64,000 nucleotides of DNA from Atherix ibis. Lineage: Eukaryota; Arthropoda; Insecta; Diptera; Athericidae. Position 1 is the first letter of the stretch. Each line of letters opens with the position of its first letter. The translations under genes and the position numbers were made by a program. The DNA lies in the NCBI GenBank assembly GCA_958298945.1, contig OY282605.1, positions 22,236,811 to 22,300,810 on the forward strand, given 5' to 3'. Positions 14,301 to 41,300 of the stretch are shown in pieces. The notes below the pieces were generated by a model, which did no database searches, had not been told where the DNA came from, and saw nothing but the letters and a program-made list of their open reading frames with translations.

Positions 14301-17300
14301 AGATCAGGCGAAGGATTTTAAGTCATCTCCTATTAGTTAAATAATTTTGCCTATATTTAAAATCTTTCTTTTTGCAATGAAAATTGAAACAACTACAAAA
14401 AATTGCTAAGAAAATTTCAATTAACGTCTTCTCATTATATTGTTTTAATGTTTTGAAAATTTCATTTGCCACTAAATTTTTTTTTCAACTATATTCTTTC
14501 ACAAATATTTTATCTGCGTACTAAAATATATATAAAATTTTATTTATGCTTGTACATCCTCCTTTTGACACAAAACTCAAATAATATGTGCTTTAAAAAT
14601 ATATCTCCTTAAAGGGTTAAGTTAAATTTCTTTGTCAAAACAGAATTTTTCTGTCACATCCGATAATCGTTTCCAATCATAGTCAATGAATTATGTATAA
14701 AAAAAATAATTCTAATTCGTTACGACAAGTTGCCAAATGCGTATGGAATAGATAATAATATTGCGGAAAAAACTGCACTTTTTCAATGAAACATTAATTC
14801 TTTATTTATAATAACGACGATGGAAGACATAATATTATTTTGAAATTAAAATCCATCTAAAGAAGAAATTCAATATGTTTTTGTTATTTTTTTATATATT
14901 CAAATATTTAATTATTAATATATGTGCGCGAAAAAATTAATTATTCAATTTCAATTTAGACGTAAAGAAAAAATAAACATTTAAAAAATTATACCATTTC
15001 AATGTGTGCGAATGTATTTCCTTGAAATATTTCCTTCAATTTAATCTTGTTTTATACCTGGCATTATCAAAATCGAAATGGATTTTATTTTATTTTATAT
15101 GAAATTAATTATTGTATTTTGATAAGACAACAAAAGATAAATTTATTATATGATAGGTTATAAAATTAAATAAATAAATATATTTTTCCCGATAGTGCAC
15201 TATAAGAATTGTATGTGACAATTATTCATTTTGTTAGCTTGAAAAATTACTGACGGATTTAGAAATGTTACTTATTTCATTTAACAGCTTTCAAATATAT
15301 ATGCCATCTATGGTCAAATTTATTTAGAATAGATTTTGCCATTTTACAATTAAAATAAGTTTTTTTTAAACAAACTTTACATTAAATTTGTAAAAACTTT
15401 TGTTAAAATTTGTGATTGTGCCCTAGTCACGTTTCGTATTTATTGACTTTATTGTGTGAAAATTTCCAAGATCAAGTAATTTCGACATTTTATAATCGTG
15501 CGATTTGACGCCATTCGATTTTTTCTTGTGGAGGTCTAAAAAAATTCGGTTTTTTTAAAAAATTTGATTGAACAGTTTTTTTACGTATAATTATTTTTAG
15601 TCCCCATAAATTCATAAATTTCGATTTTATTTTAAAATTTTCATTTCAGAAATTAAAAAAATATATTTATTTTTGAAAATTATTTTACGAAATACTATTT
15701 TTTATTTTTAGAATAAAATCATTAAAATATAAAAAATAATTTGAATTTTATTTTATTTTACAAGAAAATAGATTTTTCTTCACATTAAATAGTTACTTTT
15801 TGCGCTTCGAGTAGATTTTTTTTTTACCGATGAGGTTCATTTCTGGTACGGCGGATAAATTAAAATAATCGAAATTTTCGCATATGGGGCTCTGAAGATC
15901 CATAAGTTATTCGTAAAAAATGACTATGTGGTGTGAATTTTGTCTGACATGGACTTTATTGTGCGAAAATTTCCAAGATCAAGTAATTTCCAAATTTTGT
16001 GATCGTGCGATTTGACACCATTCAATTTTTTCTTGTAGAACTAAAAAAAACTCGGTTTTTAAAAAAAATTCGATTGAACAGTTTTTTTACGTCTAATTAT
16101 TTTAAGTCCCCATAAATTCATGAATTTCGATTTTATTTTAAAATATTTATTTCAGAAATTAAAAAAAAATATTGTTTTTGAAAATTATTTTACCAAATAC
16201 TATTTTTAATTTTTAGAATAAATCATTAAAATATAAAAAATAATTTGAATTTTATTTTATTTTACAAGAAAATAGATTTTTCTTCACACCACAGATAGTC
16301 ACTTTTTGCGGTTGTAGTAGATTTTTTTTATTGATGAGGTTCATTTCTGGTTCGGCGGATAAATTAAAATAATCAAAATTTTCGCATATGGGGCTCTGAA
16401 AATCCATAAGTTATTCGTAAAAAATGACCATCTGGTGTGAATTTTGGTCTGACATGGACTTTATTGTGCGAAAATTTCCAAGATCAAGTAATTCCCAAAT
16501 TTTGTGATCGTGCAATTCGATTTTTTCTTGTGGAGGTCTAAAAAAAAATTCGGTTTTTTTTAAAAATTTGATTGAACAGTTTTTTTACGTCTAATTATTT
16601 TAAGTCCCCATAAATTCATAAATTTCGATTTTATTTTAAAATTTTCATTTCAGAAATTAAAAAAAAATATTTTTTTTGAAAATTATTTTACGAAATACTA
16701 TTTTTTATTTTTAGAATAAAATCATTAAAATATAAAAAATAATTTGAATTTTATTTTATTTTACAAGAAAATAGATTTTTCTTCACATTAAATAGTTACT
16801 TTTTGCGCTTCGAGTAGATTTTTTTTTTACCGATGAGGTTCATTTCTGGTACGGCGGATAAATTAAAATAATCGAAATTTTCGCATATGGGGCTCTGAAG
16901 ATCCATAAGTTATTCGTAAAAAATGACTATGTGGTGTGAATTTTGTCTGACATGGACTTTATTGTGCGAAAATTTCCAAGATCAAGTAATTTCCAAATTT
17001 TGTGATCGTGCGATTTGACACCATTCAATTTTTTCTTGTAGAACTAAAAAAAACTCGGTTTTTAAAAAAAATTCGATTGAACAGTTTTTTTACGTCTAAT
17101 TATTTTAAGTCCCCATAAATTCATGAATTTCGATTTTATTTTAAAATATTTATTTCAGAAATTAAAAAAAAATATTGTTTTTGAAAATTATTTTACCAAA
17201 TACTATTTTTAATTTTTAGAATAAATCATTAAAATATAAAAAATAATTTGAATTTTATTTTATTTTACAAGAAAATAGATTTTTCTTCACACCAGATAGT

Positions 17301-20300
17301 TACTTTTTGCGCTTCGAGTAGATTTTTTTTTTACCGATGAGTTTCATTTCTGGTACGGCGGATAAATTAAAATAATCAAAATGTCGTATGTGGGGCTCTG
17401 AAAATCCATAAGTTACTCGCAAAAAGTGACTATCTGTTGTCATTGACCCGTATTTATTGACTTTATTGTGAGAAAATTTCCAAGATCAAGTAATTTCGAC
17501 ATTTTATGATCGTGTGATTTGAAGCCATTCGATTTTTTCTTGTTGAGGTCTAAAAAAATTCGGTTTTTTAAAAAAAATTTGATTGAACAGTTTTTTTACG
17601 TCTAATTATTTTTAGTCCCCATAAATTCATGAATTTCGATTTTATTTTAAAATTTTTATTTCAGAAATTAAAAAAAAATATTTTTTTTTAAATTATTTTA
17701 CGAAATACTATTTTTAATTTTTAGAATAAAATCATTAAAATATAAAAAATAATTTGAATTTTATTTTATTTTACAAGAAAATAGATTTTTCTTCACATTA
17801 AATAGTTACTTTTTGCGCTTCGAGTAGATTTTTTTTTACCGATGAGTTTCATTTCTGGTACGGCGGATAAATTAAAATAATCAAAATTTTCGCATATGGG
17901 GCTCTGAAGATCCATAAGTTATTCGTAAAAAATGACTATGTGGTGTGAATTTTGTCTGACATGTACTTTATTGTGCGAAAATTTCCAAGATCAAGTAATT
18001 TCCAAATTTTGTGATCGTGCGATTTGACACCATTCAATTTTTTCTTGTGGAAGTCTAAAAAAAACTCGGTTTTTAAAAAAAATTCGATTGAACAGTTTTT
18101 TACGTCTAATTATTTTAAGTCCCCATAAATTCATGAATTTCAATTTTATTTTAATATTTTCATTTCAGAAATTAAAAAAAAATATTGTTTTTGAAAATTA
18201 TTTTACCAAATACTATTTTTAATTTTTAGAATAAATCATTAAAATATAAAAAATAATTTGAATTTTATTTTATTTTACAAGAAAATAGATTTTTCTTCAC
18301 ACCAGATAGTTACTTTTTGCGCTTCGAGTAGATTTTTTTTTTTACCGATGAGTTTCATTTCTGGTACGGCGGATAAATTAAAATAATCAAAATGTCGTAT
18401 GTGGGGCTCTGAAAATCCATAAGTTACTCGCAAAAAGTGACTATCTGTTGTCATTGACCCGTATTTATTGACTTTATTGTGAGAAAATTTCCAAGATCAA
18501 GTAATTTCGACATTTTATGATCGTGTGATTTGAAGCCATTCGATTTTTTCTTGTTGAGGTCTAAAAAAATTCGGTTTTTTAAAAAAAATTTGATTGAACA
18601 GTTTTTTTACGTCTAATTATTTTTAGTCCCCATAAATTCATGAATTTCGATTTTATTTTAAAATTTTTATTTCAGAAATTAAAAAAAAATATTTTTTTTG
18701 AAAATTATTTTACGAAATACTATTTTTAATTTTTAGAATAAAATCATTAAAATATAAAAAATAATTTGAATTTTATTTTATTTTACAAGAAAATAGATTT
18801 TTCTTCACATTAAATAGTTACTTTTTGCGCTTCGAGTAGATTTTTTTTTACCGATGAGTTTCATTTCTGGTACGGCGGATAAATTAAAATAATCAAAATT
18901 TTCGCATATGGGGCTCTGAAGATCCATAAGTTATTCGTAAAAAATGACTATGTGGTGTGAATTTTGTCTGACATGGACTTTATTGTGCGAAAATTTCCAA
19001 GATCAAGTAATTTCCAAATTTTGTGATCGTGCGATTTGACACCATTCAATTTTTTCTTGTGGAAGTCTAAAAAAAACTCGGTTTTTAAAAAAAATTCGAT
19101 TGAACAGTTTTTTACGTCTAATTATTTTAAGTCCCCATAAATTCATGAATTTCAATTTTATTTTAATATTTTCATTTCAGAAATTAAAAAAAAATATTGT
19201 TTTTGAAAATTATTTTACCAAATACTATTTTTAATTTTTAGAATAAATCATTAAAATATAAAAAATAATTTGAATTTTATTTTATTTTACAAGAAAATAG
19301 ATTTTTCTTCACACCAGATAGTTACTTTTTGCGCTTCGAGTAGATTTTTTTTTTTACCGATGAGTTTCATTTCTGGTACGGCGGATAAATTAAAATAATC
19401 AAAATGTCGTATGTGGGGCTCTGAAAATCCATAAGTTACTCGCAAAAAGTGACTATCTGTTGTCATTGACCCGTATTTATTGACTTTATTGTGTGAAAAT
19501 TTCCAAGATCAAGTAATTTCGACATTTTATGATCGTGCGATTTGACGCCATTCGATTTTTTCTTGTGGAGGTCTAAAAAAAATTCGTTTTTTTAAAAAAA
19601 TTTGATTGAACAGTTTTTTTACGTCTAATTATTTTAAGTCCCCATAAATTCATGAATTTCGATTTTATTTTAAAATTTTTATTTCAGAAATAAAAAAAAA
19701 TATTTTTTTTGGAAAATTATTTTACGAAATACTATTTTTTATTTTTAGAATAAAATCATTAAAATATAAAAAATAATTTGAATTTTATTTTATTTTACAA
19801 GAAAATAGATTTTTCTTCACACCACAGATAGTCACTTTTTGCGGTTGTAGTAGATTTTTTTTATTGATGAGGTTCATTTTTGGTTCGGCGGATAAATTAA
19901 AATAATCAAAATTTTCGCATATGGGGCTCTGAAAATCCATAAGTTATTCGTAAAAAATGACCATCTGGTGTGAATTTTGGTCTGACATGGACTTTATTGT
20001 GCGAAAATTTCCAAGATCAAGTAATTCCCAAATTTTGTGATCGTGCAATTTAACGCCATTCGATTTTTTCTTGTGGAGGTCTAAAAAAAATTCGGTTTTT
20101 TTTAAAAATTTGATTGAACAGTTTTTTTACGTCTAATTATTTTAAGTCCCCATAAATTCATAAATTTCGATTTTATTTTAAAATTTTCATTTCAGAAATT
20201 AAAAAAAAATATTTTTTTTGAAAATTATTTTACGAAATACTATTTTTTATTTTTAGAATAAAATCATTAAAATATAAAAAATAATTTGAATTTTATTTTA

Positions 20301-23300
20301 TTTTACAAGAAAATAGATTTTTCTTCACATTAAATAGTTACTTTTTGCGCTTCGAGTAGATTTTTTTTTACCGATGAGGTTCATTTCGATTTTTTCTTGT
20401 GGAGGTCTAAAAAAAATTCGGTTTTTTTTAAAAATTTGATTGAACAGTTTTTTTACGTCTAATTATTTTAAGTCCCCATAAATTCATAAATTTCGATTTT
20501 ATTTTAAAATTTTCATTTCAGAAATTAAAAAAAAATATTTTTTTTGAAAATTATTTTACGAAATACTATTTTTTATTTTTAGAATAAAATCATTAAAATA
20601 TAAAAAATAATTTGAATTTTATTTTATTTTACAAGAAAATAGATTTTTCTTCACATTAAATAGTTACTTTTTGCGCTTCGAGTAGATTTTTTTTTACCGA
20701 TGAGGTTCATTTCTGGTACGGCGGATAAATTAAAATAATCAAAATTTTCGCATATGGGGCTCTGAAGATCCATAAGTTATTCGTAAAAAATGACTATGTG
20801 GTGTGAATTTTGTCTGACATGTACTTTATTGTGCGAAAATTTCCAAGATCAAGTAATTTCCAAATTTTGTGATCGTGCGATTTGACACCATTCAATTTTT
20901 TCTTGTGGAAGTCTAAAAAAAACTCGGTTTTTAAAAAAAATTCGATTGAACAGTTTTTTACGTCTAATTATTTTAAGTCCCCATAAATTCATGAATTTCA
21001 ATTTTATTTTAATATTTTCATTTCAGAAATTAAAAAAAAATATTGTTTTTGAAAATTATTTTACCAAATACTATTTTTAATTTTTAGAATAAATCATTAA
21101 AATATAAAAAATAATTTGAATTTTATTTTATTTTACAAGAAAATAGATTTTTCTTCACACCAGATAGTTACTTTTTGCGCTTCGAGTAGATTTTTTTTTT
21201 TACCGATGAGTTTCATTTCTGGTACGGCGGATAAATTAAAATAATCAAAATGTCGTATGTGGGGCTCTGAAAATCCATAAGTTACTCGCAAAAAGTGACT
21301 ATCTGTTGTCATTGACCCGTATTTATTGACTTTATTGTGAGAAAATTTCCAAGATCAAGTAATTTCGACATTTTATGATCGTGTGATTTGAAGCCATTCG
21401 ATTTTTTCTTGTTGAGGTCTAAAAAAATTCGGTTTTTTAAAAAAAATTTGATTGAACAGTTTTTTTACGTCTAATTATTTTTAGTCCCCATAAATTCATG
21501 AATTTCGATTTTATTTTAAAATTTTTATTTCAGAAATTAAAAAAAAATATTTTTTTTTAAATTATTTTACGAATACTATTTTTAATTTTTAGAATAAAAT
21601 CATTAAAATATAAAAAATAATTTGAATTTTATTTTATTTTACAAGAAAATAGATTTTTCTTCACATTAAATAGTTACTTTTTGCGCTTCGAGTAGATTTT
21701 TTTTTACCGATGAGTTTCATTTCTGGTACGGCGGATAAATTAAAATAATCAAAATTTTCGCATATGGGGCTCTGAAGATCCATAAGTTATTCGTAAAAAA
21801 TGACTATGTGGTGTGAATTTTGTCTGACATGGACTTTATTGTGCGAAAATTTCCAAGATCAAGTAATTTCCAAATTTTGTGATCGTGCGATTTGACACCA
21901 TTCAATTTTTTCTTGTGGAAGTCTAAAAAAAACTCGGTTTTTAAAAAAAATTCGATTGAACAGTTTTTTACGTCTAATTATTTTAAGTCCCCATAAATTC
22001 ATGAATTTCAATTTTATTTTAATATTTTCATTTCAGAAATTAAAAAAAAATATTGTTTTTGAAAATTATTTTACCAAATACTATTTTTAATTTTTAGAAT
22101 AAATCATTAAAATATAAAAAATAATTTGAATTTTATTTTATTTTACAAGAAAATAGATTTTTCTTCACACCAGATAGTTACTTTTTGCGCTTCGAGTAGA
22201 TTTTTTTTTTTACCGATGAGTTTCATTTCTGGTACGGCGGATAAATTAAAATAATCAAAATGTCGTATGTGGGGCTCTGAAAATCCATAAGTTACTCGCA
22301 AAAAGTGACTATCTGTTGTCATTGACCCGTATTTATTGACTTTATTGTGTGAAAATTTCCAAGATCAAGTAATTTCGACATTTTATGATCGTGCGATTTG
22401 ACGCCATTCGATTTTTTCTTGTGGAGGTCTAAAAAAAATTCGTTTTTTTAAAAAAATTTGATTGAACAGTTTTTTTACGTCTAATTATTTTAAGTCCCCA
22501 TAAATTCATGAATTTCGATTTTATTTTAAAATTTTTATTTCAGAAATAAAAAAAAATATTTTTTTTGGAAAATTATTTTACGAAATACTATTTTTTATTT
22601 TTAGAATAAAATCATTAAAATATAAAAAATAATTTGAATTTTATTTTATTTTACAAGAAAATAGATTTTTCTTCACACCACAGATAGTCACTTTTTGCGG
22701 TTGTAGTAGATTTTTTTTATTGATGAGGTTCATTTTTGGTTCGGCGGATAAATTAAAATAATCAAAATTTTCGCATATGGGGCTCTGAAAATCCATAAGT
22801 TATTCGTAAAAAATGACCATCTGGTGTGAATTTTGGTCTGACATGGACTTTATTGTGCGAAAATTTCCAAGATCAAGTAATTCCCAAATTTTGTGATCGT
22901 GCAATTCGATTTTTTCTTGTGGAGGTCTAAAAAAAATTCGGTTTTTTTTAAAAATTTGATTGAACAGTTTTTTTACGTCTAATTATTTTAAGTCCCCATA
23001 AATTCATAAATTTCGATTTTATTTTAAAATTTTCATTTCAGAAATTAAAAAAAAATATTTTTTTTGAAAATTATTTTACGAAATACTATTTTTTATTTTT
23101 AGAATAAAATCATTAAAATATAAAAAATAATTTGAATTTTATTTTATTTTACAAGAAAATAGATTTTTCTTCACATTAAATAGTTACTTTTTGCGCTTCG
23201 AGTAGATTTTTTTTTACCGATGAGGTTCATTTCGATTTTTTCTTGTGGAGGTCTAAAAAAAATTCGGTTTTTTTTAAAAATTTGATTGAACAGTTTTTTT

Positions 23301-26300
23301 ACGTCTAATTATTTTAAGTCCCCATAAATTCATAAATTTCGATTTTATTTTAAAATTTTCATTTCAGAAATTAAAAAAAAATATTTTTTTTGAAAATTAT
23401 TTTACGAAATACTATTTTTTATTTTTAGAATAAAATCATTAAAATATAAAAAATAATTTGAATTTTATTTTATTTTACAAGAAAATAGATTTTTCTTCAC
23501 ATTAAATAGTTACTTTTTGCGCTTCGAGTAGATTTTTTTTTACCGATGAGGTTCATTTCTGGTACGGCGGATAAATTAAAATAATCAAAATTTTCGCATA
23601 TGGGGCTCTGAAGATCCATAAGTTATTCGTAAAAAATGACTATGTGGTGTGAATTTTGTCTGACATGTACTTTATTGTGCGAAAATTTCCAAGATCAAGT
23701 AATTTCCAAATTTTGTGATCGTGCGATTTGACACCATTCAATTTTTTCTTGTGGAAGTCTAAAAAAAACTCGGTTTTTAAAAAAAATTCGATTGAACAGT
23801 TTTTTACGTCTAATTATTTTAAGTCCCCATAAATTCATGAATTTCAATTTTATTTTAATATTTTCATTTCAGAAATTAAAAAAAAATATTGTTTTTGAAA
23901 ATTATTTTACCAAATACTATTTTTAATTTTTAGAATAAATCATTAAAATATAAAAAATAATTTGAATTTTATTTTATTTTACAAGAAAATAGATTTTTCT
24001 TCACACCAGATAGTTACTTTTTGCGCTTCGAGTAGATTTTTTTTTTTACCGATGAGTTTCATTTCTGGTACGGCGGATAAATTAAAATAATCAAAATGTC
24101 GTATGTGGGGCTCTGAAAATCCATAAGTTACTCGCAAAAAGTGACTATCTGTTGTCATTGACCCGTATTTATTGACTTTATTGTGAGAAAATTTCCAAGA
24201 TCAAGTAATTTCGACATTTTATGATCGTGTGATTTGAAGCCATTCGATTTTTTCTTGTTGAGGTCTAAAAAAATTCGGTTTTTTAAAAAAAATTTGATTG
24301 AACAGTTTTTTTACGTCTAATTATTTTTAGTCCCCATAAATTCATGAATTTCGATTTTATTTTAAAATTTTTATTTCAGAAATTAAAAAAAAATATTTTT
24401 TTTTAAATTATTTTACGAATACTATTTTTAATTTTTAGAATAAAATCATTAAAATATAAAAAATAATTTGAATTTTATTTTATTTTACAAGAAAATAGAT
24501 TTTTCTTCACATTAAATAGTTACTTTTTGCGCTTCGAGTAGATTTTTTTTTACCGATGAGTTTCATTTCTGGTACGGCGGATAAATTAAAATAATCAAAA
24601 TTTTCGCATATGGGGCTCTGAAGATCCATAAGTTATTCGTAAAAAATGACTATGTGGTGTGAATTTTGTCTGACATGGACTTTATTGTGCGAAAATTTCC
24701 AAGATCAAGTAATTTCCAAATTTTGTGATCGTGCGATTTGACACCATTCAATTTTTTCTTGTGGAAGTCTAAAAAAAACTCGGTTTTTAAAAAAAATTCG
24801 ATTGAACAGTTTTTTACGTCTAATTATTTTAAGTCCCCATAAATTCATGAATTTCAATTTTATTTTAATATTTTCATTTCAGAAATTAAAAAAAAATATT
24901 GTTTTTGAAAATTATTTTACCAAATACTATTTTTAATTTTTAGAATAAATCATTAAAATATAAAAAATAATTTGAATTTTATTTTATTTTACAAGAAAAT
25001 AGATTTTTCTTCACACCAGATAGTTACTTTTTGCGCTTCGAGTAGATTTTTTTTTTTACCGATGAGTTTCATTTCTGGTACGGCGGATAAATTAAAATAA
25101 TCAAAATGTCGTATGTGGGGCTCTGAAAATCCATAAGTTACTCGCAAAAAGTGACTATCTGTTGTCATTGACCCGTATTTATTGACTTTATTGTGAGAAA
25201 ATTTCCAAGATCAAGTAATTTCGACATTTTATGATCGTGTGATTTGAAGCCATTCGATTTTTTCTTGTTGAGGTCTAAAAAAAATTCGGTTTTTTTAAAA
25301 AATTTGATTGAACAGTTTTTTTACGTCTAATTATTTTAAGTCCCCATAAATTCATGAATTTCGATTTTATTTTAAAATTTTTATTTCAGAAATAAAAAAA
25401 AATATTTTTTTTGGAAAATTATTTTACGAAATACTATTTTTTATTTTTAGAATAAAATCATTAAAATATAAAAAATAATTTGAATTTTATTTTATTTTAC
25501 AAGAAAATAGATTTTTCTTCACACCACAGATAGTCACTTTTTGCGGTTGTAGTAGATTTTTTTTATTGATGAGGTTCATTTCTGGTTCGGCGGATAAATT
25601 AAAATAATCAAAATTTTCGCATATGGGGCTCTGAAAATCCATAAGTTATTCGTAAAAAATGACCATCTGGTGTGAATTTTGGTCTGACATGGACTTTATT
25701 GTGCGAAAATGTCCAAGATCAAGTAATTCCCAAATTTTGTGATCGTGCGATTTGACACCATTCAATTTTTTCTTGTGGAAGTCTAAAAAAAACTCGGTTT
25801 TTAAAAAAAATTCGATTGAACAGTTTTTTACGTCTAATTATTTTAAGTCCCCATAAATTCATGAATTTCAATTTTATTTTAATATTTTCATTTCAGAAAT
25901 TAAAAAAAAATATTGTTTTTGAAAATTATTTTACCAAATACTATTTTTAATTTTTAGAATAAATCATTAAAATATAAAAAATAATTTGAATTTTATTTTA
26001 TTTTACAAGAAAATAGATTTTTCTTCACACCAGATAGTTACTTTTTGCGCTTCGAGTAGATTTTTTTTTTTACCGATGAGTTTCATTTCTGGTACGGCGG
26101 ATAAATTAAAATAATCAAAATGTCGTATGTGGGGCTCTGAAAATCCATAAGTTACTCGCAAAAAGTGACTATCTGTTGTCATTGACCCGTATTTATTGAC
26201 TTTATTGTGAGAAAATTTCCAAGATCAAGTAATTTCGACATTTTATGATCGTGTGATTTGAAGCCATTCGATTTTTTCTTGTTGAGGTCTAAAAAAAATT

Positions 26301-29300
26301 CGGTTTTTTTAAAAAATTTGATTGAACAGTTTTTTTACGTCTAATTATTTTAAGTCCCCATAAATTCATGAATTTCGATTTTATTTTAAAATTTTTATTT
26401 CAGAAATAAAAAAAAATATTTTTTTTGGAAAATTATTTTACGAAATACTATTTTTTATTTTTAGAATAAAATCATTAAAATATAAAAAATAATTTGAATT
26501 TTATTTTATTTTACAAGAAAATAGATTTTTCTTCACACCACAGATAGTCACTTTTTGCGGTTGTAGTAGATTTTTTTTATTGATGAGGTTCATTTCTGGT
26601 TCGGCGGATAAATTAAAATAATCAAAATTTTCGCATATGGGGCTCTGAAAATCCATAAGTTATTCGTAAAAAATGACCATCTGGTGTGAATTTTGGTCTG
26701 ACATGGACTTTATTGTGCGAAAATGTCCAAGATCAAGTAATTTCCAAATTTTGTGATCGTGCGATTTGACACCATTCAATTTTTTCTTGTGGAAGTCTAA
26801 AAAAAAACTCGGTTTTTAAAAAAAATTCGATTGAACAGTTTTTTACGTCTAATTATTTTAAGTCCCCATAAATTCATGAATTTCAATTTTATTTTAATAT
26901 TTTCATTTCAGAAATTAAAAAAAAATATTGTTTTTGAAAATTATTTTACCAAATACTATTTTTAATTTTTAGAATAAATCATTAAAATATAAAAAATAAT
27001 TTGAATTTTATTTTATTTTACAAGAAAATAGATTTTTCTTCACACCAGATAGTTACTTTTTGCGCTTCGAGTAGATTTTTTTTTTTACCGATGAGTTTCA
27101 TTTCTGGTACGGCGGATAAATTAAAATAATCAAAATGTCGTATGTGGGGCTCTGAAAATCCATAAGTTACTCGCAAAAAGTGACTATCTGTTGTCATTGA
27201 CCCGTATTTATTGACTTTATTGTGAGAAAATTTCCAAGATCAAGTAATTTCGACATTTTATGATCGTGTGATTTGAAGCCATTCGATTTTTTCTTGTTGA
27301 GGTCTAAAAAAATTCGGTTTTTTAAAAAAAATTTGATTGAACAGTTTTTTTACGTCTAATTATTTTTAGTCCCCATAAATTCATGAATTTCGATTTTATT
27401 TTAAAATTTTTATTTCAGAAATTAAAAAAAAATATTTTTTTTTAAATTATTTTACGAATACTATTTTTAATTTTTAGAATAAAATCATTAAAATATAAAA
27501 AATAATTTGAATTTTATTTTATTTTACAAGAAAATAGATTTTTCTTCACATTAAATAGTTACTTTTTGCGCTTCGAGTAGATTTTTTTTTACCGATGAGT
27601 TTCATTTCTGGTACGGCGGATAAATTAAAATAATCAAAATTTTCGCATATGGGGCTCTGAAGATCCATAAGTTATTCGTAAAAAATGACTATGTGGTGTG
27701 AATTTTGTCTGACATGGACTTTATTGTGCGAAAATTTCCAAGATCAAGTAATTTCCAAATTTTGTGATCGTGCGATTTGACACCATTCAATTTTTTCTTG
27801 TGGAAGTCTAAAAAAAACTCGGTTTTTAAAAAAAATTCGATTGAACAGTTTTTTACGTCTAATTATTTTAAGTCCCCATAAATTCATGAATTTCAATTTT
27901 ATTTTAATATTTTCATTTCAGAAATTAAAAAAAAATATTGTTTTTGAAAATTATTTTACCAAATACTATTTTTAATTTTTAGAATAAATCATTAAAATAT
28001 AAAAAATAATTTGAATTTTATTTTATTTTACAAGAAAATAGATTTTTCTTCACACCAGATAGTTACTTTTTGCGCTTCGAGTAGATTTTTTTTTTTACCG
28101 ATGAGTTTCATTTCTGGTACGGCGGATAAATTAAAATAATCAAAATGTCGTATGTGGGGCTCTGAAAATCCATAAGTTACTCGCAAAAAGTGACTATCTG
28201 TTGTCATTGACCCGTATTTATTGACTTTATTGTGAGAAAATTTCCAAGATCAAGTAATTTCGACATTTTATGATCGTGTGATTTGAAGCCATTCGATTTT
28301 TTCTTGTTGAGGTCTAAAAAAAATTCGGTTTTTTTAAAAAATTTGATTGAACAGTTTTTTTACGTCTAATTATTTTAAGTCCCCATAAATTCATGAATTT
28401 CGATTTTATTTTAAAATTTTTATTTCAGAAATAAAAAAAAATATTTTTTTTGGAAAATTATTTTACGAAATACTATTTTTTATTTTTAGAATAAAATCAT
28501 TAAAATATAAAAAATAATTTGAATTTTATTTTATTTTACAAGAAAATAGATTTTTCTTCACACCACAGATAGTCACTTTTTGCGGTTGTAGTAGATTTTT
28601 TTTATTGATGAGGTTCATTTCTGGTTCGGCGGATAAATTAAAATAATCAAAATTTTCGCATATGGGGCTCTGAAAATCCATAAGTTATTCGTAAAAAATG
28701 ACCATCTGGTGTGAATTTTGGTCTGACATGGACTTTATTGTGCGAAAATGTCCAAGATCAAGTAATTCCCAAATTTTGTGATCGTGCAATTCGATTTTTT
28801 CTTGTGGAGGTCTAAAAAAAATTCGGTTTTTTTTAAAAATTTGATTGAACAGTTTTTTTACGTCTAATTATTTTAAGTCCCCATAAATTCATAAATTTCG
28901 ATTTTATTTTAAAATTTTCATTTCAGAAATTAAAAAAAAATATTTTTTTTGAAAATTATTTTACGAAATACTATTTTTTATTTTTAGAATAAAATCATTA
29001 TAATATAAAAAATAATTTGAATTTTATTTTATTTTACAAGAAAATAGATTTTTCTTCACATTAAATAGTTACTTTTTGCGCTTCGAGTAGATTTTTTTTT
29101 TACCGATGAGGTTCATTTCTGGTACGGCGGATAAATTAAAATAATCAAAATTTTCGCATATGGGGCTCTGAAGATTCATAAGTTATTCGTAAAAAATGAC
29201 TATGTGGTGTGAATTTTGGTCTGACATGGACTTTATTGTGCGAAAATTTCCAAGATCAAGTAATTTCCAAATTTTGTGATCGTGCGATTTGACACCATTC

Positions 29301-32300
29301 AATTTTTTCTTGTGGAAGTCTAAAAAAAACTCGGTTTTAAAAAAAAATTCGATTGACAGTTTTTTACGTCTAATTATTTTAAGTCCCCATAAATTCATGA
29401 ATTTCGATTTTATTTTAAAATTTTTATTTCAGAAATTAAAAAAAAATATTTTTTTTGAAAATTATTTTACGAAATACTATTTTTAATTTTTAGAATAAAT
29501 CATTAAAATATAAAAAATAATTTGAATTTTATTTTATTTTACAAGAAAATAGATTTTTCTTCACACCACAGATAGTCACTTTTTGCAGTTGTAGTAGATT
29601 TTTTTTATTGATGAGGTTCATTTCTGGTTCGGCGGATAAATTAAAATAATCAAAATTTTCGCATATGGGGCTCTGAAAATCCATAAGTTATTCGTAAAAA
29701 ATGACCATCTGGTGTGAATTTTGGTCTGACATGGACTTTATTGTGCGAAAATTTCCAAGATCAAGTAATTCCCAAATTTTGTGATCGTGCAATTTAACGC
29801 CATTCGATTTTTTCTTGTGGAGGTCTAAAAAAAATTCGGTTTTTTTTAAAAATTTGATTGAACAGTTTTTTTACGTCTAATTATTTTAAGTCCCCATAAA
29901 TTCATAAATTTCGATTTTATTTTAAAATTTTCATTTCAGAAATTAAAAAAAAATATTTTTTTTGAAAATTATTTTACGAAATACTATTTTTTAATTTTAG
30001 AATAAAATCATTAAAATATAAAAAATAATTTGAATTTTATTTTATTTTACAAGAAAATAGATTTTTCTTCACATTAAATAGTTACTTTTTGCGCTTCGAG
30101 TAGATTTTTTTTTTACCGATGAGGTTCATTTCTGGTACGGCGGATAAATTAAAATAATCAAAATTTTCGCATATGGGGCTCTGAAGATCCATAAGTTATT
30201 CGTAAAAAATGACTATGTGGTGTGAATTTTGGTCTGACATGGACTTTATTGTGCGAAAATTTCCAAGATCAAGTAATTTCCAAATTTTGTGATCGTGCGA
30301 TTTGACACCATTCAATTTTTTCTTGTGGAAGTCTAAAAAAAACTCGGTTTTAAAAAAAAATTCGATTGAACAGTTTTTTACGTCTAATTATTTTAAGTCC
30401 CCATAAATTCATGAATTTCAATTTTATTTTAATATTTTCATTTCAGAAATTAAAAAAAAATATTGTTTTTGAAAATTATTTTACCAAATACTATTTTTAA
30501 TTTTTAGAATAAATCATTAAAATATAAAAAACAATTTGAATTTTATTTTATTTTACAAGAAAATAAATTTTTTTTCACACCAGATAGTTACTTTTTGCGC
30601 TTCGAGTAGATTTTTTTTTTACCGATGAGTTTCATTTCTGGTACGGCGGATAAATTAAAATAATCAAAATGTCGTATGTGGGGCTCTGAAAATCCATAAG
30701 TTACTCGCAAAAAGTGACTATCTGTTGTCATTGACCCGTATTTATTGACTTTATTGTGTGAAAATTTCCAAGATCAAGTAATTTCGACATTTTATGATCG
30801 TGCGATTTGACGCCATTCGATTTTTTCTTGTGGAGGTCTAAAAAAAATTCGTTTTTTAAAAAAAATTTGATTGAACAGTTTTTTTACGTCTAATTATTTT
30901 AAGTCCCCATAAATTCATAAATTTCGATTTTATTTTAAAATTTTCATTTCAGAAATTAAAAAAAAATATTTTTTTTGAAAATTATTTTACGAAATACTAT
31001 TTTTTATTTTTAGAATAAAATCATTAAAATATAAAAAATAATTTGAATTTTATTTTATTTTACAAGAAAATAGATTTTTCTTCACATTAAATAGTTACTT
31101 TTTGCGCTTCGAGTAGATTTTTTTTTTACCGATGAGGTTCATTTCTGGTACGGCGGATAAATTAAAATAATCAAAATGTCGTATGTGGGGCTCTGAAAAT
31201 CCATAAGTTACTCGCAAAAAGTGACTATGTGGTGTGAATTTTGTCTGACATGGACTTTATTGTGCGAAAATTTCCAAGATCAAGTAATTTCCAAATTTTG
31301 TGATCGTGCGATTTGACACCATTCAATTTTTTCTTGTGGAAGTCTAAAAAACTCGGTTTTTAAAAAAAATTCGATTGAACAGTTTTTTACGTCTAATTAT
31401 TTTAAGTCCCCATAAATTCATGAATTTCAATTTTATTTTAATATTTTCATTTCAGAAATTAAAAAAAAATATTGTTTTTGAAAATTATTTTACCAAATAC
31501 TATTTTTAATTTTTAGAATAAATCATTAAAATATAAAAAATAATTTGAATTTTATTTTATTTTACAAGAAAATAGATTTTTCTTCACACCAGATAGTTAC
31601 TTTTTGCGCTTCGAGTAGATTTTTTTTTTACCGATGAGTTTCATTTCTGGTACGGCGGATAAATTAAAATAATCAAAATGTCGTATGTGGGGCTCTGAAA
31701 ATCCATAAGTTACTCGCAAAAAGTGACTATCTGTTGTCATTGACCCGTATTTATTGACTTTATTGTGTGAAAATTTCCAAGATCAAGTAATTTCCAAATT
31801 TTGTGATCGTGCGATTTGACACCATTCAATTTTTTCTTGTGGAAGTCTAAAAAAAACTCGGTTTTTAAAAAAAATTCGATTGAACAGTTTTTTACGTCTA
31901 ATTATTTTAAGTCCCCATAAATTCATGAATTTCAATTTTATTTTAATATTTTCATTTCAGAAATTAAAAAAAAATATTGTTTTTGAAAATTATTTTACCA
32001 AATACTATTTTTAATTTTTAGAATAAATCATTAAAATATAAAAAATAATTTGAATTTTATTTTATTTTACAAGAAAATAGATTTTTCTTCACACCAGATA
32101 GTTACTTTTTGCGCTTCGAGTAGATTTTTTTTTTTACCGATGAGTTTCATTTCTGGTACGGCGGATAAATTAAAATAATCAAAATGTCGTATGTGGGGCT
32201 CTGAAAATCCATAAGTTACTCGCAAAAAGTGACTATCTGTTGTCATTGACCCGTATTTATTGACTTTATTGTGAGAAAATTTCCAAGATCAAGTAATTTC

Positions 32301-35300
32301 GACATTTTATGATCGTGTGATTTGAAGCCATTCGATTTTTTCTTGTTGAGGTCTAAAAAAATTCGGTTTTTTAAAAAAAATTTGATTGAACAGTTTTTTT
32401 ACGTCTAATTATTTTAAGTCCCCATAAATTCATAAATTTCGATTTTATTTTAAAATTTTCATTTCAGAAATTAAAAAAAAATATTTTTTTTGAAAATTAT
32501 TTTACGAAATACTATTTTTTATTTTTAGAATAAAATCATTAAAATATAAAAAATAATTTGAATTTTATTTTATTTTACAAGAAAATAGATTTTTCTTCAC
32601 ACCACAGATAGTCACTTTTTGCGGTTCTAGTAGATTGTTTTTATTGATGAGGTTCATTTCTTGTTCGGCGGATAAATTAAAATAATCAAAATTTTCGCAT
32701 ATGGGGCTCTGAAAATCCATAAGTTATTCGTAAAAAATGACCATCTGGTGTGAATTTTGGTCTGACATGGACTTTATTGTGCGAAAATTTCCAAGATCAA
32801 GTAATTCCCAAATTTTGTGATCGTGCAATTTAACGCCATTCGATTTTTTCTTGTGGAGGTCTAAAAAAAATCGGTTTTTTTTAAAAATTTGATTGAACAG
32901 TTTTTTTACGTCTAATTATTTTAAGTCCCCATAAATTCATGAATTTCAATTTTATTTTAATATTTTCATTTCAGAAATTAAAAAAAATATTGTTTTTGAA
33001 AATTATTTTACGAAATACTATTTTTTATTTTTAGAATAAATCATTAAAATATAAAAAACAATTTGAATTTTATTTTATTTTACATTAAAATAAATTTTTC
33101 TTCACACCAGATAGTTACTTTTTGCGCTTCGAGTAGATTTTTTTTTTACCGGTGAGGTTCATTTCTGGTACGGCGGATAAATTAAAATAATCAAAATTTT
33201 CGCATATGGGGCTCTGAAGATCCATAAGTTATTCGTAAAAAATGACTATGTGGTGTGAATTTTGTCTGACATGGACTTTATTGTGCGAAAATTTCCAAGA
33301 TCAAGTAATTTCCAAATTTTGTGATCGTGCGATTTGACACCATTCAATTTTTTCTTGTGGAAGTCTAAAAAAAACTCGGTTTTTAAAAAAAATTCGATTA
33401 AACAGTTTTTTACGTCTAATTATTTTAAGTCCCCATAAATTCATGAATTTCAATTTTATTTTAATATTTTCATTTCAGAAATTAAAAAAAAATATTGTTT
33501 TTGAAAATTATTTTACCAAATACTATTTTTAATTTTTAGAATAAATCATTAAAATATAAAAAATAATTTGAATTTTATTTTATTTTACAAGAAAATAGAT
33601 TTTTCTTCACACCAGATAGTTACTTTTTGCGCTTCGAGTAGATTTTTTTTTTTTACCGATGAGTTTCATTTCTGGTACGGCGGATAAATTAAAATAATCA
33701 AAATGTCGTATGTGGGGCTCTGAAAATCCATAAGTTACTCGCAAAAAGTGACTATCTGTTGTCATTGACCCGTATTTATTGACTTTATTGTGTGAAAATT
33801 TCCAAGATCAAGTAATTTCGACATTTTATGATCGTGCGATTTGACGCCATTCGATTTTTTCTTGTGGAGGTCTAAAAAAAATTCGTTTTTTTAAAAAAAT
33901 TTGATTGAACAGTTTTTTTACGTCTAATTATTTTAAGTCCCCATAAATTCATAAATTTCGATTTTATTTTAAAATTTTCATTTCAGAAATTAAAAAAAAA
34001 TATTTTTTTTGAAAATTATTTTACGAAATACTATTTTTTAATTTTAGAATAAAATCATTAAAATATAAAAAATAATTTGAATTTTATTTTATTTTACAAG
34101 AAAATAGATTTTTCTTCACATTAAATAGTTACTTTTTGCGCTTCGAGTAGATTTTTTTTTTACCGATGAGGTTCATTTCTGGTACGGCGGATAAATTAAA
34201 ATAATCAAAATTTTCGCATATGGGGCTCTGAAGATCCATAAGTTATTCGTAAAAAATGACTATGTGGTGTGAATTTTGGTCTGACATGGACTTTATTGTG
34301 CGAAAATTTCCAAGATCAAGTAATTTCCAAATTTTGTGATCGTGCGATTTGACACCATTCAATTTTTTCTTGTGGAAGTCTAAAAAAAACTCGGTTTTAA
34401 AAAAAAATTCAATTGAACAGTTTTTTACGTCTAATTATTTTAAGTCCCCATAAATTCATGAATCTCAATTTTATTTTAATATTTTCATTTCAGAAATTAA
34501 AAAAAAATATTGTTTTTGAAAATTATTTTACCAAACACTATTTTTAATTTTTAGAATAAATCATTAAAATATAAAAAACAATTTGAATTTTATTTTATTT
34601 TACATTAAAATAAATTTTTTTTCACACCAGATAGTTACTTTTTGCGCTTCGAGTAGATTTTTTTTTTTACCGATGAGTTTCATTTCTGGTACGGCGGATA
34701 AATTAAAATAATCAAAATGTCGTATGTGGGGCTCTGAAAATCCATAAGTTACTCGCAAAAAGTGACTATCTGTTGTCATTGACCCGTATTTATTGACTTT
34801 ATTGTGAGAAAATTTCCAAGATCAAGTAATTTCGACATTTTATGATCGTGTGATTTGAACCCATTCGATTTTTTCTTATTGAGGTCTAAAAAAAATTCGG
34901 TTTTTTTAAAAAATTTGATTGAACAGTTTTTTTACGTCTAATTATTTTAAGTCCCCATAAATTCATGAATTTCGATTTTATTTTAAAATTTTTATTTCAG
35001 AAATAAAAAAAAATATTTTTTTTGGAAAATTATTTTACGAAATACTATTTTTTATTTTTAGAATAAAATCATTAAAATATAAAAAATAATTTGAATTTTA
35101 TTTTATTTTACAAGAAAATAGATTTTTCTTCACACCACAGATAGTCACTTTTTGCGGTTGTAGTAGATTTTTTTTATTGATGAGGTTCATTTCTGGTACG
35201 GCGGATAAATTAAAATAATCAAAATGTCGTATGTGGGGCTCTGAAAATCCATAAGTTACTCGCAAAAAGTGACTATCTGTTGTCATTGACCCGTATTTAT

Positions 35301-38300
35301 TGACTTTATTGTGTGAAAATTTCCAAGATCAAGTAATTTCGACATTTTATGATCGTGCGATTTGACGCCATTCGATTTTTTCTTGTGGAGGTCTAAAAAA
35401 AATTCGGTTTCTTAAAAAAATTTGATTGAACAGTTTTTTTACGTCTAATTATTTTTAGTCCCCATAAATTCATGAATTTCGATTTTATTTTAAAATTTTC
35501 ATTTCAGAAATTAAAAAAAAATATTTTTTTTGAAAATTATTTTACGAAATACTATTTTTTATTTTTAGAATAAAATCATTAAAATATAAAAAATAATTTG
35601 AATTTTATTTTATTTTACAAGAAAATAGATTTTTCTTCACATTAAATAGTTACTTTTTGCGCTTCGAGTAGATTTTTTTTTTACCGGTGAGGTTCATTTC
35701 TGGTACGGCGGATAAATTAAAATAATCAAAATTTTCGCATATGGGGCTCTGAAGATCCATAAGTTATTCGTAAAAAATGACTATGTGGTGTGAATTTTGT
35801 CTGACATGGACTTTATTGTGCGAAAATTTCCAAGATCAAGTAATTTCCAAATTTTGTGATCGTGCGATTTGACACCATTCAATTTTTTCTTGTGGAAGTC
35901 TAAAAAAAACTCGGTTTTTAAAAAAAAATCGATTGAACAGTTTTTTACGTCTAATTATTTTAAGTCCCCATAAATTCATGAATTTCAATTTTATTTTAAT
36001 ATTTTCATTTCAGAAATTAAAAAAAAATATTGTTTTTGAAAATTATTTTACCAAATACTATTTTTAATTTTTAGAATAAATCATTAAAATATAAAAAATA
36101 ATTTGAATTTTATTTTATTTTACAAGAAAATAGATTTTTCTTCACACCAGATAGTTACTTTTTGCGCTTCGAGTAGATTTTTTTTTTTACCGATGAGTTT
36201 CATTTCTGGTACGGCGGATAAATTAAAATAATCAAAATGTCGTATGTGGGGCTCTGAAAATCCATAAGTTACTCGCAAAAAGTGACTATCTGTTGTCATT
36301 GACCCGTATTTATTGACTTTATTGTGTGAAAATTTCCAAGATCAAGTAATTTCGACATTTTATGATCGTGCGATTTGACGCCATTCGATTTTTTCTTGTG
36401 GAGGTCTAAAAAAAATTCGTTTTTTTAAAAAAATTTGAGTGAACAGTTTTTTTACGTCTAATTATTTTAAGTCCCCATAAATTCATAAATTTCGATTTTA
36501 TTTTAAAATTTTCATTTCAGAAATTAAAAAAAAATATTTTTTTTGAAAATTATTTTACGAAATACTATTTTTTATTTTTAGAATAAAATCATTAAAATAT
36601 AAAAAATAATTTGAATTTTATTTTATTTTACAAGAAAATAAATTTTTCTTCACACCAGATAGTTACTTTTTGCGCTTCGAGTAGATTTTTTTTTTACCGG
36701 TGAGGTTCATTTCTGGTACGGCGGATAAATTAAAATAATCAAAATTTTCGCATACACGTATGGGGCTCTGAAGATCCATAAGTTATTCGTAAAAAATGAC
36801 TATGTGGTGTGAATTTTGGTCTGACATGGACTTTATTGTGCGAAAATTTCCAAGATCAAGTAATTTCCAAATTTTGTGATCGTGCGATTTGACACCATTC
36901 AATTTTTTCTTGTGGAAGTCTAAAAAAAACTCGGTTTTAAAAAAAAATTCGATTGAACAGTTTTTTACGTCTAATTATTTTAAGTCCCCATAAATTCATG
37001 AATTTCAATTTTATTTTAATATTTTCATTTCAGAAATTAAAAAAAAATATTGTTTTTGAAAATTATTTTACCAAATACTATTTTTAATTTTTAGAATAAA
37101 TCATTAAAATATAAAAAACAATTTGAATTTTATTTTATTTTACATTAAAATAAATTTTTTTTCACACCAGATAGTTACTTTTTGCGCTTCGAGTAGATTT
37201 TTTTTTTACCGATGAGTTTCATTTCTGGTACGGCGGATAAATTAAAATAATCGAAATGTCGTATGTGGGGCTCTGAAAATCCATAAGTTACTCGCAAAAA
37301 GTGACTATCTGTTGTCATTGACCCGTATTTATTGACTTTATTGTGTGAAAATTTCCAAGATCAAGTAATTTCGACATTTTATGATCGTGCGATTTGACGC
37401 CATTCGATTTTTTCTTGTGGAGGTCTAAAAAAAATTCGTTTTTTTAAAAAAATTTGATTGAACAGTTTTTTTACGTCTAATTATTTTAAGTCCCCATAAA
37501 TTCATAAATTTCAATTTTATTTTAAAATTTTCATTTCAGAAATTAAAAAAAAATATTTTTTTTGAAAATTATTTTACGAAATACTATTTTTTATTTTTAG
37601 AATAAAATCATTAAAATATAAAAAATAATTTGAATTTTATTTTATTTTACAAGAAAATAAATTTTTCTTCACACCAGATAGTTACTTTTTGCGCTTCGAG
37701 TAGATTTTTTTTTTACCGGTGAGGTTCATTTCTGGTACGGCGGATAAATTAAAATAATCAAAATTTTCGCATATGGGGCTCTGAAGATCCATAAGTTATT
37801 CGTAAAAAATGACTATGTGGTGTGAATTTTGGTCTGACATGGACTTTATTGTGCGAAAATTTCCAAGATCAAGTAATTTCCAAATTTTGTGATCGTGCGA
37901 TTTGACACCATTCAATTTTTTCTTGTGGAAGTCTAAAAAAAACTCGGTTTTAAAAAAAAATTCGATTGAACAGTTTTTTACGTCTAATTATTTTAAGTCC
38001 CCATAAATTCATGAATTTCAATTTTATTTTAATATTTTCATTTCAGAAATTAAAAAAAAATATTGTTTTTGAAAATTATTTTACCAAATACTATTTTTAA
38101 TTTTTAGAATAAATCATTAAAATATAAAAAACAATTTGAATTTTATTTTATTTTACATTAAAATAAATTTTTTTTCACACCAGATAGTTACTTTTTGCGC
38201 TTCGAGTAGATTTTTTTTTTACCGATGAGTTTCATTTCTGGTACGGCGGATAAATTAAAATAATCAAAATGTCGTATGTGGGGCTCTGAAAATCCATAAG

Positions 38301-41300
38301 TTACTCGCAAAAAGTGACTATCTGTTGTCATTGACCCGTATTTATTGACTTTATTGTGTGAAAATTTCCAAGATCAAGTAATTTCGACATTTTATGATCG
38401 TGCGATTTGACGCCATTCGATTTTTTCTTGTGGAGGTCTAAAAAAAATTCGGTTTCTTAAAAAAATTTGATTGAACAGTTTTTTTACGTCTAATTATTTT
38501 TAGTCCCCATAAATTCATGAATTTCGATTTTATTTTAAAATTTTCATTTCAGAAATTAAAAAAAAATATTTTTTTTGAAAATTATTTTACGAAATACTAT
38601 TTTTTATTTTTAGAATAAAATCATTAAAATATAAAAAATAATTTGAATTTTATTTTATTTTACAAGAAAATAGATTTTTCTTCACATTAAATAGTTACTT
38701 TTTGCGCTTCGAGTAGATTTTTTTTTTACCGATGAGGTTCATTTCTGGTACGGCGGATAAATTAAAATAATCAAAATTTTCGCATATGGGGCTCTGAAGA
38801 TCCATAAGTTATTCGTAAAAAATGACTATGTGGTGTGAATTTTGTCTGACATGGACTTTATTGTGCGAAAATTTCCAAGATCAAGTAATTTCCAAATTTT
38901 GTGATCGTGCGATTTGACACCATTCAATTTTTTCTTGTGGAAGTCTAAAAAAAACTCGGTTTTAAAAAAAAATTCGATTGAACAGTTTTTTACGTCTAAT
39001 TATTTTAAGTCCCCATAAATTCATGAATTTCAATTTTATTTTAATATTTTCATTTCAGAAATTAAAAAAAAATATTGTTTTTGAAAATTATTTTACCAAA
39101 TACTATTTTTAATTTTTAGAATAAATCATTAAAATATAAAAAACAATTTGAATTTTATTTTATTTTACATTAAAATAAATTTTTCTTCACACCAGATAGT
39201 TACTTTTTGCGCTTCGAGTAGATTTTTTTTTTACCGATGAGTTTCATTTCTGGTACGGCGGATAAATTAAAATAATCAAAATGTCGTATGTGGGGCTCTG
39301 AAAATCCATAAGTTACTCGCAAAAAGTGACTATCTGTTGTCATTGACCCGTATTTATTGACTTTATTGTGAGAAAATTTCCAAGATCAAGTAATTTCGAC
39401 ATTTTATGATCGTGTGATTTGAACCCATTCGATTTTTTCTTATTGAGGTCTAAAAAAAATTCGGTTTTTTTAAAAAATTTGATTGAACAGTTTTTTTACG
39501 TCTAATTATTTTAAGTCCCCATAAATTCATGAATTTCGATTTTATTTTAAAATTTTTATTTCAGAAATTAAAAAAAAATATTTTTTTTCAAAATTATTTT
39601 ACGAAATACTATTTTTAATTTTTAGAATAAAATCATTAAAATATAAAAAATAATTTGAATTTTATTTTATTTTACAAGAAAATAGATTTTTCTTCACATT
39701 AAATAGTTACTTTTTGCGCTTCGAGTAGATTTTTTTTTTACCGATGAGGTTCATTTCTGGTACGGCGGATAAATTAAAATAATCAAAATGTCGTATGTGG
39801 GGCTCTGAAAATCCATAAGTTACTCGCAAAAAGTGACTATCTGTTGTCATTGACTCGTATTTATTGACTTCATTGTGTGAAAATTTCCGAGATCAAGTAA
39901 TTTCGACATTTTATGATCGTGCGATTTGACGCCGATCGATTTTTGCTTCTGGGGGGCTATACAAAAGATCGTTCGTGTTTTTAAAAACAATCCGATTCAA
40001 CAGTTTTTTTACGTCTAATTTTTTTTAAGTCCTCATAGATATGATTTTTTTTGAAAATTATTTTACGAAATACTATTTTTTATTTTTAGAATAAAATCAT
40101 TAAAATATGAAAAATAATTTGAATTTTATTTTAATTTACAAGAAAATAGATTTTTCTTCATACCCAGATAGTCAGTTTTTGCGATTAAAAAACAAATTCT
40201 ACTCGAAAAAAAACGAAATGATCGTGCGATTTGAAGCCATTCGATTTTTTCTTGTGGATGTCTAAAAAAATTCGGTTTTAAAAAAAAATTTGATTGAACA
40301 GTTTTTTACGTCTAATTATTTTTAGTCCCCATAAATTCATGAATTTCGATTTTATTTTAAAATTTTCATTTCAGAAATTAAAAAAAATATTTTTTTTGAA
40401 AATAATTTTACGAAATACTATTTTTTATTTTTAGAATAAAATCATTAAAATATAAAAAATAATTTGAATTTTATTTTATTTTACAAGAAAATAGATTTTT
40501 CTTCACATTAAATAGTTACTTTTTGCGCTTCTAGTAGGTTTTTTTTATTGACGAGGTTCATTTCTGGGTCGGCGGATAAATTAAAATAAGCAAAATTTTC
40601 ACATATGGGGCTCTGAAGATCCATAGGAAGTCTAAAAAAAATTCGGTTTTAAAAAAAAATTCGATTGAACAGTTTTTTACGTCTAATTATTTTTAGTCCC
40701 CATAAATTCATGAATTTCGATTTTATTTTAAAATTTTCATTTCAGAAATTAAAAAAAAAAAATTTTTTTGAAAATTATTTTACGAAATACTATTTTTTAT
40801 TTTTAGAATAAAGTCATTAAAATATAAAAAATAATTTGAATTTTATTTTAATTTACATGAAAACCCTAAATATTATCTGATTGTGCAGAATAAGCATTAA
40901 CTAAAAATCCTATAAAATTGAATTAAAAATAAAATTACCTTTTCAGTTTTTATCAGCTATTATCACCAGTTTAAGAATCAGTTAAAAATTTAAAAAAAAA
41001 TGTTTAAATGGTAAATTCATAAATAAATATTTATTTTACTCATAAAAATAAAGGTAACATTTTATACAGAAAATCTTTGTTGAATAATCTTGTCTAAATT
41101 TTTTTTTAAATTCATAAGAAATAACTTGAAAAAAATAAGTAGTCGTCTTTCGTGTTTTATTCGAAGCTATATCGAATATCAAAACTCGTTTCTAGAATAG
41201 TAAAACTATGCTCCGAACATGATTAGGCCTAAATGTCGGTTGTACAAACGTTCCATGGGGCTTATCATAATACTCCTCGGTAAGTGTGAATTGTGATAAT

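Follow-up and report, generated by a model that had tools for sequence, protein, structure and literature searches.

Satellite DNAs with a Tc1/mariner source are given only for Messor and Xenopus tropicalis in Table 1 of PMC9659126, and one satellite in that table, from Chenopodium, goes back to a transposase gene, both statements applying to the part of the paper considered here. In Messor ants, which likewise combine an insect mariner with satellite DNA, the mariner Mboumar sits inside a 79-bp satellite according to the compared parts of PMC2581405 and PMC9659126, whereas in the array described below a piece of transposase is itself the repeat unit. The family of its putative donor is that of the rosa DD41D elements of aphids, for which miniature inverted-repeat transposable elements (MITEs) arising by internal deletion have been described; "satellite" is not mentioned in the main text of that paper (PMC5490172). 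In this study, we analyzed a window of 64,000 nucleotides from the fly Atherix ibis (C1:22236811-22300810 in an assembly of 669.8 Mb and 144 contigs, which was searched as a whole) that harbors a 25-kb tandem array of a DD41D-derived monomer.

The array extends from 15431 to 40863 on the plus strand of the window (25,433 bp), only a few bases beyond the 15431..40857 given in an earlier note on this DNA, and consists of about fifty units of ~505 bp arranged head to tail in a single orientation. Its blastn matches extend over 15435-40863; Tandem Repeats Finder (TRF) does not report it, the longest period of that program being 500. For comparison, the array was cut into 52 pieces, namely a left partial unit of 340 bp (15431..15770, +), which begins in the LTLLCENF part, and 51 units; 46 of these measure 498-512 bp, two measure 326 bp, and the three at the right edge have lengths of 464, 345, and 370 bp. 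Clustering resulted in three main types with 21 members (C4, including the left partial), 18 members (C2), and eight members (C3), besides three deleted units and two singletons. Examples are the C4 unit at 25002..25509 (+; identical copies at 26016 and 28041), the C2 unit at 24498..25001 (+; identical copies at 18796, 21652, and 27537), and the C3 unit at 19808..20315 (+), which is among the best DD41D matches (159.2). Neighbors of like type were found in only 2 of 48 pairs among the first 49 pieces, the last three being omitted from this test, while shuffled orders gave a mean of 15.9 and a minimum of 6 (n=5000). Thus, the units alternate in a pattern of about 1 kb.

The 46 core units revealed a mean pairwise identity of 0.937 (minimum 0.877), and seven sets of identical units were detected, the members of which are not adjacent. 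At the right edge, identities were 0.888, 0.890, and 0.925. The 326-bp unit at 20316..20641 (+), in which the transposase part is cut from FTDEVHF to DFFLW, starts a repeated block of 2,846 bp, and an identical second unit (23162-23487) follows at this same distance. In regard to the term "tandem satellite" used in the earlier note, the locus is indeed a long head-to-tail array with homogenised units; presence at many loci or in heterochromatin, however, was not found within the assembly. A 28-base word from the A/T-rich part of the monomer (up to 3 mismatches) gave 51 forward matches, all located at C1:22252405-22277528 inside this array, while neither the reverse strand nor a control word gave any. 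Since these matches are confined to the array, we regard it as a single-locus array in the assembly and not as a dispersed satellite.

Relatives of the encoded protein were collected by two protein searches yielding 6162 and 2595 matches, and the best 120 of each made up 210 proteins, 163 of which (those with 340-385 residues) served as a DD41D profile. Aligned to it with a custom frameshift-tolerant local aligner, the monomer consensus scored 150.7, compared to a mean of 34.4 (sd 3.9) and a maximum of 49.0 for 200 shuffled sequences; 50 of the 52 pieces scored above 60, the two below being the 326-bp units with 40.7. The match covers profile positions 156-186, 193-204, 263-279, and 286-298, while 187-192, 205-262, and 280-285 are absent from the consensus. 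Along the monomer, the protein blocks named before were present in the order claimed, reading [18 protein letters not shown](I/M)[30 protein letters not shown]. Using simple patterns, the context of the first catalytic Asp was recognized in 45/52 pieces and a stop after YGG in 48/52. The QQD block with the second Asp appeared in none of the 52, in agreement with the middle deletion around QQDGA that had been proposed. Judged by its sequence, the monomer represents a fragment of a DD41D (rosa-type) transposase that has decayed and undergone internal deletion, losing the block of the second Asp but keeping those of the first and the third. The origin claimed in the earlier note therefore held, and the outcome named there as refuting it, either no significant translated match or one short chance block only, did not occur.

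One detail of the proposed span from first to third Asp had to be corrected. The distance between the second and the third Asp is 41 residues in 158 of the 165 measurable proteins among the 210, and also in the two decayed full-length DD41D mariners of the window, E1 (58737..59944, +) and E2 (9843..11162, -). By this count, the third Asp is that of P.DFFL and not that of CDL. Among the 43 pieces matching the pattern, 22 have GAT as its codon, whereas 21 have AAT (Asn). Stops and frameshifts were common to all three unit types, indicating that the donor was dead before amplification, and no open transposase frame was found among the open reading frames of 120 amino acids or more in the array, which encodes no transposase. 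In the diverged right-edge unit at 39685..40148 (+, 464 bp), the coding match continues beyond the third Asp, reading [18 protein letters not shown], and its DNA resembles the genomic copy L002, which indicates that the coding part formerly extended further; the two units that follow it (40149..40863, +; 345 and 370 bp) are rearranged. A search of Pfam resulted in 0 families each for the stitched catalytic peptides of the satellite, E1, and E2, no candidate emerged when proteins were searched for relatives of the X-padded satellite peptide, and pattern scans of collections of viral and genome contigs gave 0 matches.

Comparison of the monomer with the genome resulted in 45 scored matches with identities of 71-90%, most of which involve query positions 51-143 and 188-270; as this search skips common words, the array itself is not listed. 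Inside the window but outside the array, blastn matched only 38 bp, located in E1. The closest DNA belongs to an older, decayed DD41D subfamily (L001, L002, L006, L019, and L020) and not to E1 or E2. The rosa-type source suggested before applies to the DD41D group, while neither mariner of the window was the donor. Within the old subfamily, L002 is nearly complete (profile 1-359), and GSENPQ and EKPLYP are read in decayed copies. Copy L001 aligns to monomer positions 185-270 over 86 bp without gaps (80% identity) and is, like the satellite, without the same few residues before CDLT, which are retained in L002 and L015. DD41D elements are very abundant genome-wide, with 56,990 candidates for the protein P0123 (113 scored, including long copies without inner stops) and 10,628 for L002 (40 scored).

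At the 5' end of the monomer, directly before FTDE, the consensus reads TF.ALRVD, and L004 and L019 show N-terminal TFRALRGDY-like codons fused to FFSDEAH. The 5' end matched L019 with a score of 38 (0/500 shuffles as good for all four consensuses), L004 with 34 (0/500 for three of the four), and L020 with 22 (1-4/500). Based on these comparisons, it is probably not filler. A 28-base pattern of this junction (up to 3 mismatches) matched 71 times at 64 places in the genome, the reversed pattern 0 times. Copies that lack about profile 35-154 are thus widespread, which is what a non-autonomous derivative would lead one to expect. A profile lacking columns 36-154 fitted the monomer only slightly better (157.6 vs 152.5) but the C3 consensus worse (144.2 vs 148.0). 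Probably, the array stems from a non-autonomous member of the old DD41D subfamily that had arisen by deletion and, as we infer, belonged to this deletion family. Two of the junction copies stand inverted 274 bp apart (C5:70727738, + and C5:70728012, -). The monomer itself contains a 26-bp inverted repeat (9-34 vs 144-170, e.g., 24506-24531 and 24641-24667), which scored above the shuffle maximum in the consensuses ALL (37/32), C4 (36/28), and C3 (30/29), but not in C2 (22/28). An origin of the 5' end by inversion of the KVTVWC segment was not retained as an explanation, and the inverted repeat is kept as an observation only, given that a similar, direct stretch lies upstream of FSDEAH in old-subfamily copies.

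The A/T-rich filler proper comprises monomer positions 289-507 with a GC content of 12.8%. Among the 45 genome matches, two involve this part (C1:106794272 and C5:66510999), and the latter, beside a DD41D copy, stayed within the range of shuffles (65 and 70 vs maxima of 70 and 74). An A/T palindrome in this tail was at chance level by shuffles.

Taken together, we consider it likely that an old, dead, and deleted DD41D copy was duplicated in tandem in place together with A/T-rich DNA and then expanded to the array. According to this scenario, a long-dead, internally deleted copy of the old subfamily would have lain upstream of a CLU-family gene, and the copy plus about 200 bp of A/T-rich sequence would have been duplicated where it was located. 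Unequal exchange and conversion could then have led to some fifty units with their alternation of about 1 kb and similar core, while units at the right edge would have diverged or stayed nearer to the ancestor. Separate local amplification of other decayed DD41D copies may have given rise to shorter arrays with other periods. A possible first step is illustrated by L010, a tandem duplication inside a dead copy. Amplification in place and recombination as its mechanism are what we infer from these data.

Several observations weigh against this scenario. The middle deletion (205-262) occurs in none of the other DD41D copies displayed, and the array itself is absent from the 71 junction matches. 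Some comparisons of the 5' end were weak or at chance level, namely those of C3 with L004 (106/500 shuffles as good), with L006 (3 to 408/500), and with L051 (156-229/500). Furthermore, the filler showed no convincing match to the 3' regions of 11 DD41D copies on both strands, so that its derivation from the 3' region of the element is unsupported. The best target among the 22 comparisons, L053, was matched by 6/2000 tail shuffles and 21/2000 target shuffles. On this point, the earlier description of the tail as filler stood, and filler and transposase are only presumed to have been neighbors before amplification. Unequal exchange broadly predicts edge units that are more diverged than the core, and the left partial (0.929) is hardly more diverged than the core units. 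Finally, the junction search and the search for further loci refer to the assembly only.

The array is not the only tandem arrangement of decayed DD41D copies. At loci matching the monomer, DD41D segments in tandem were identified in L004 (period of 187 bp), L008 (141), L009 (113, 143, and 114), L011 (141), and L012 (128 and 168). In L010, five copies of about profile 157-201 follow each other with a period of 136 bp, the last continuing to position 342. In the first 20 loci, TRF detected 11 arrays with a period of at least 80, nine of them mostly DD41D; as the loci were fetched for their monomer match, the choice is biased towards the catalytic segment and gives no rate. Further short tandem arrays or duplications of transposase segments were noticed in L051-L055. 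With a whole-element query (L002:900-2400), 66 matches at 40 places were obtained, of which five were tandem, in the sense that query ranges which overlap recur on one strand; a further place held an inverted pair. The repeated ranges lie in query positions 599-1027, corresponding to about profile 154-297 after conversion, and two of them become longer when aligned to the profile (118-302 and 168-318). Repeat distances (557, 557, 524, 163, and 141 bp) as well as segments differ, pointing to separate duplication events. Queries of equal length from the N- and C-terminal parts each revealed tandem repeats within 2 kb at 0/40 places, the latter query finding two like copies 7.1 kb apart; a strict comparison of these fractions is not possible, since the copies ranked highest are those best conserved for the query in question. 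Among the 64 junction places, three were tandem (C3:18366808, C5:9517691, and C6:17673133) and one was an inverted pair.

Altogether, recurrent local birth of tandem arrays from decayed DD41D copies is supported, and a hotspot for tandem amplification is suggested. Tandem arrays without DD41D were also present in the same neighborhoods (L009:1471-2146 and L011:6795-7365), so that tandem duplication is not restricted to this family. Only tentatively, and with more doubt than confidence, do we put forward that the catalytic segment, from about FSDEAHF to DFFLW, is such a hotspot through its sequence features, which would make dead mariners a standing generator of independent satellites throughout a genome, with the 505-bp array as its most advanced product. 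If true, this would point to a mechanism in which sequence determines the sites of satellite birth.

In the window, the array has a DUF1168 gene (6184-6876, -) on its left and a CLU-family gene (41506-45012, +) on its right, with UCH-type and XRN1-like coding pieces beyond. By themselves, these genes and the DD41D relatives suggest an arthropod and probably an insect. A distance of 643 bp (40864-41506) separates the end of the array from the first ATG in the CLU frame, so that the array may border the promoter. A fragment of a third DD41D element, E3 (14006..14314, +), located 1.1 kb left of the array, covers the N-terminal part (profile 19-134) with a score of 168.7 (shuffle maximum 50.3, n=60). 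E3 was not supported as the other half of the donor, because the scores that the 163 relatives reached with E3 were uncorrelated with those reached with the satellite (Spearman 0.04). The closest protein to E2 among the matches listed is 86% identical, and a search of solved structures with the E2 peptide gave no match. Weaker mariner-like matches occur at 12549-13263 (-, 80.7) and 62144-62349 (+, 74.5); their HDNAPPH or PDLAPCDFFLF-type motifs are presumably those of DD34D mariners.

Among other explanations, we regard it as unlikely that the unit spread as a MITE-like element with internal repeats and that the array is one such insertion, now without its ends. Satellite repeats inside Tc1/mariner MITEs have been described, as in miDNA4 (PMC12628747 and PMC9659126, in the parts compared), deletion derivatives of DD41D are dispersed in the genome, and some arrays lie inside a copy that continues at one side, as in L010. 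The filler of the unit, however, occurs nowhere else in the assembly, and the flanking stretches of 900 bp contain no coding match to DD41D other than the units. The idea that the window shows an outlying euchromatic block of a satellite abundant in heterochromatin is slightly less probable still. It would fit the alternating higher-order units typical of satellites, and assemblies often lack such arrays, but all 51 filler-word matches belong to one array, which is located among protein genes.

The short distance to the CLU frame could also be taken to mean that the array was kept for the sake of this gene, e.g., as a regulatory or insulating block. With no Rfam match in the window, unit lengths that vary, and deletions present, we think this quite improbable. 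Least of all can the likeness to DD41D be ascribed to chance in A/T-rich DNA: the A/T-rich tail does match by chance, and nothing else speaks for this explanation, which is refuted by a score of 150.7 against 49.0 at most in shuffles, with five blocks in order, and by the DNA matches to genomic DD41D copies.

With tandem duplication in place as the preferred reading, several stages stand side by side in this one genome, namely near-complete relatives, dispersed deleted copies, tandem segments of two to about ten, and a homogenised 25-kb array. In this way, the birth of a tandem array from the coding region of a DNA transposon becomes orderable and testable, and the array shows how repeated DNA can arise from genomic fossils. 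In the openly licensed literature, we found neither a satellite with a DD41D source nor a paper linking Crmar2 with a satellite. Transposon-derived and even transposase-derived satellites are already known; it is the DD41D source that was not met in the literature searched. According to the parts of the sources compared, the Chenopodium satellite CficCl-61-40, which goes back to the Tnp2 transposase region of Jozin, a CACTA-like element, comes from the transposase-coding part of a non-autonomous DNA transposon (PMC9659126), as the DD41D array probably does, but from another superfamily and kingdom, and it is called the major satellite of its genus in the title of a reference, while the DD41D array was found at one locus. 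In miDNA4 of Xenopus tropicalis, Tc1/mariner-related tandem repeats lie in non-autonomous elements (PMC12628747, PMC9659126), to which the donor of the DD41D array probably belonged as well; that satellite, however, resides in a MITE, and the text compared does not describe it as transposase-derived (PMC12628747). The Ogre-derived satellites of Lathyrus likewise revealed a recurrent origin from one transposon family in one genome (PMC9659126 and PMC7004042, as far as compared), but Ogre elements are long terminal repeat (LTR) retrotransposons that gave rise to satellites near gag (PMC7004042), whereas the array of Atherix ibis goes back to the catalytic region of a DNA transposon.

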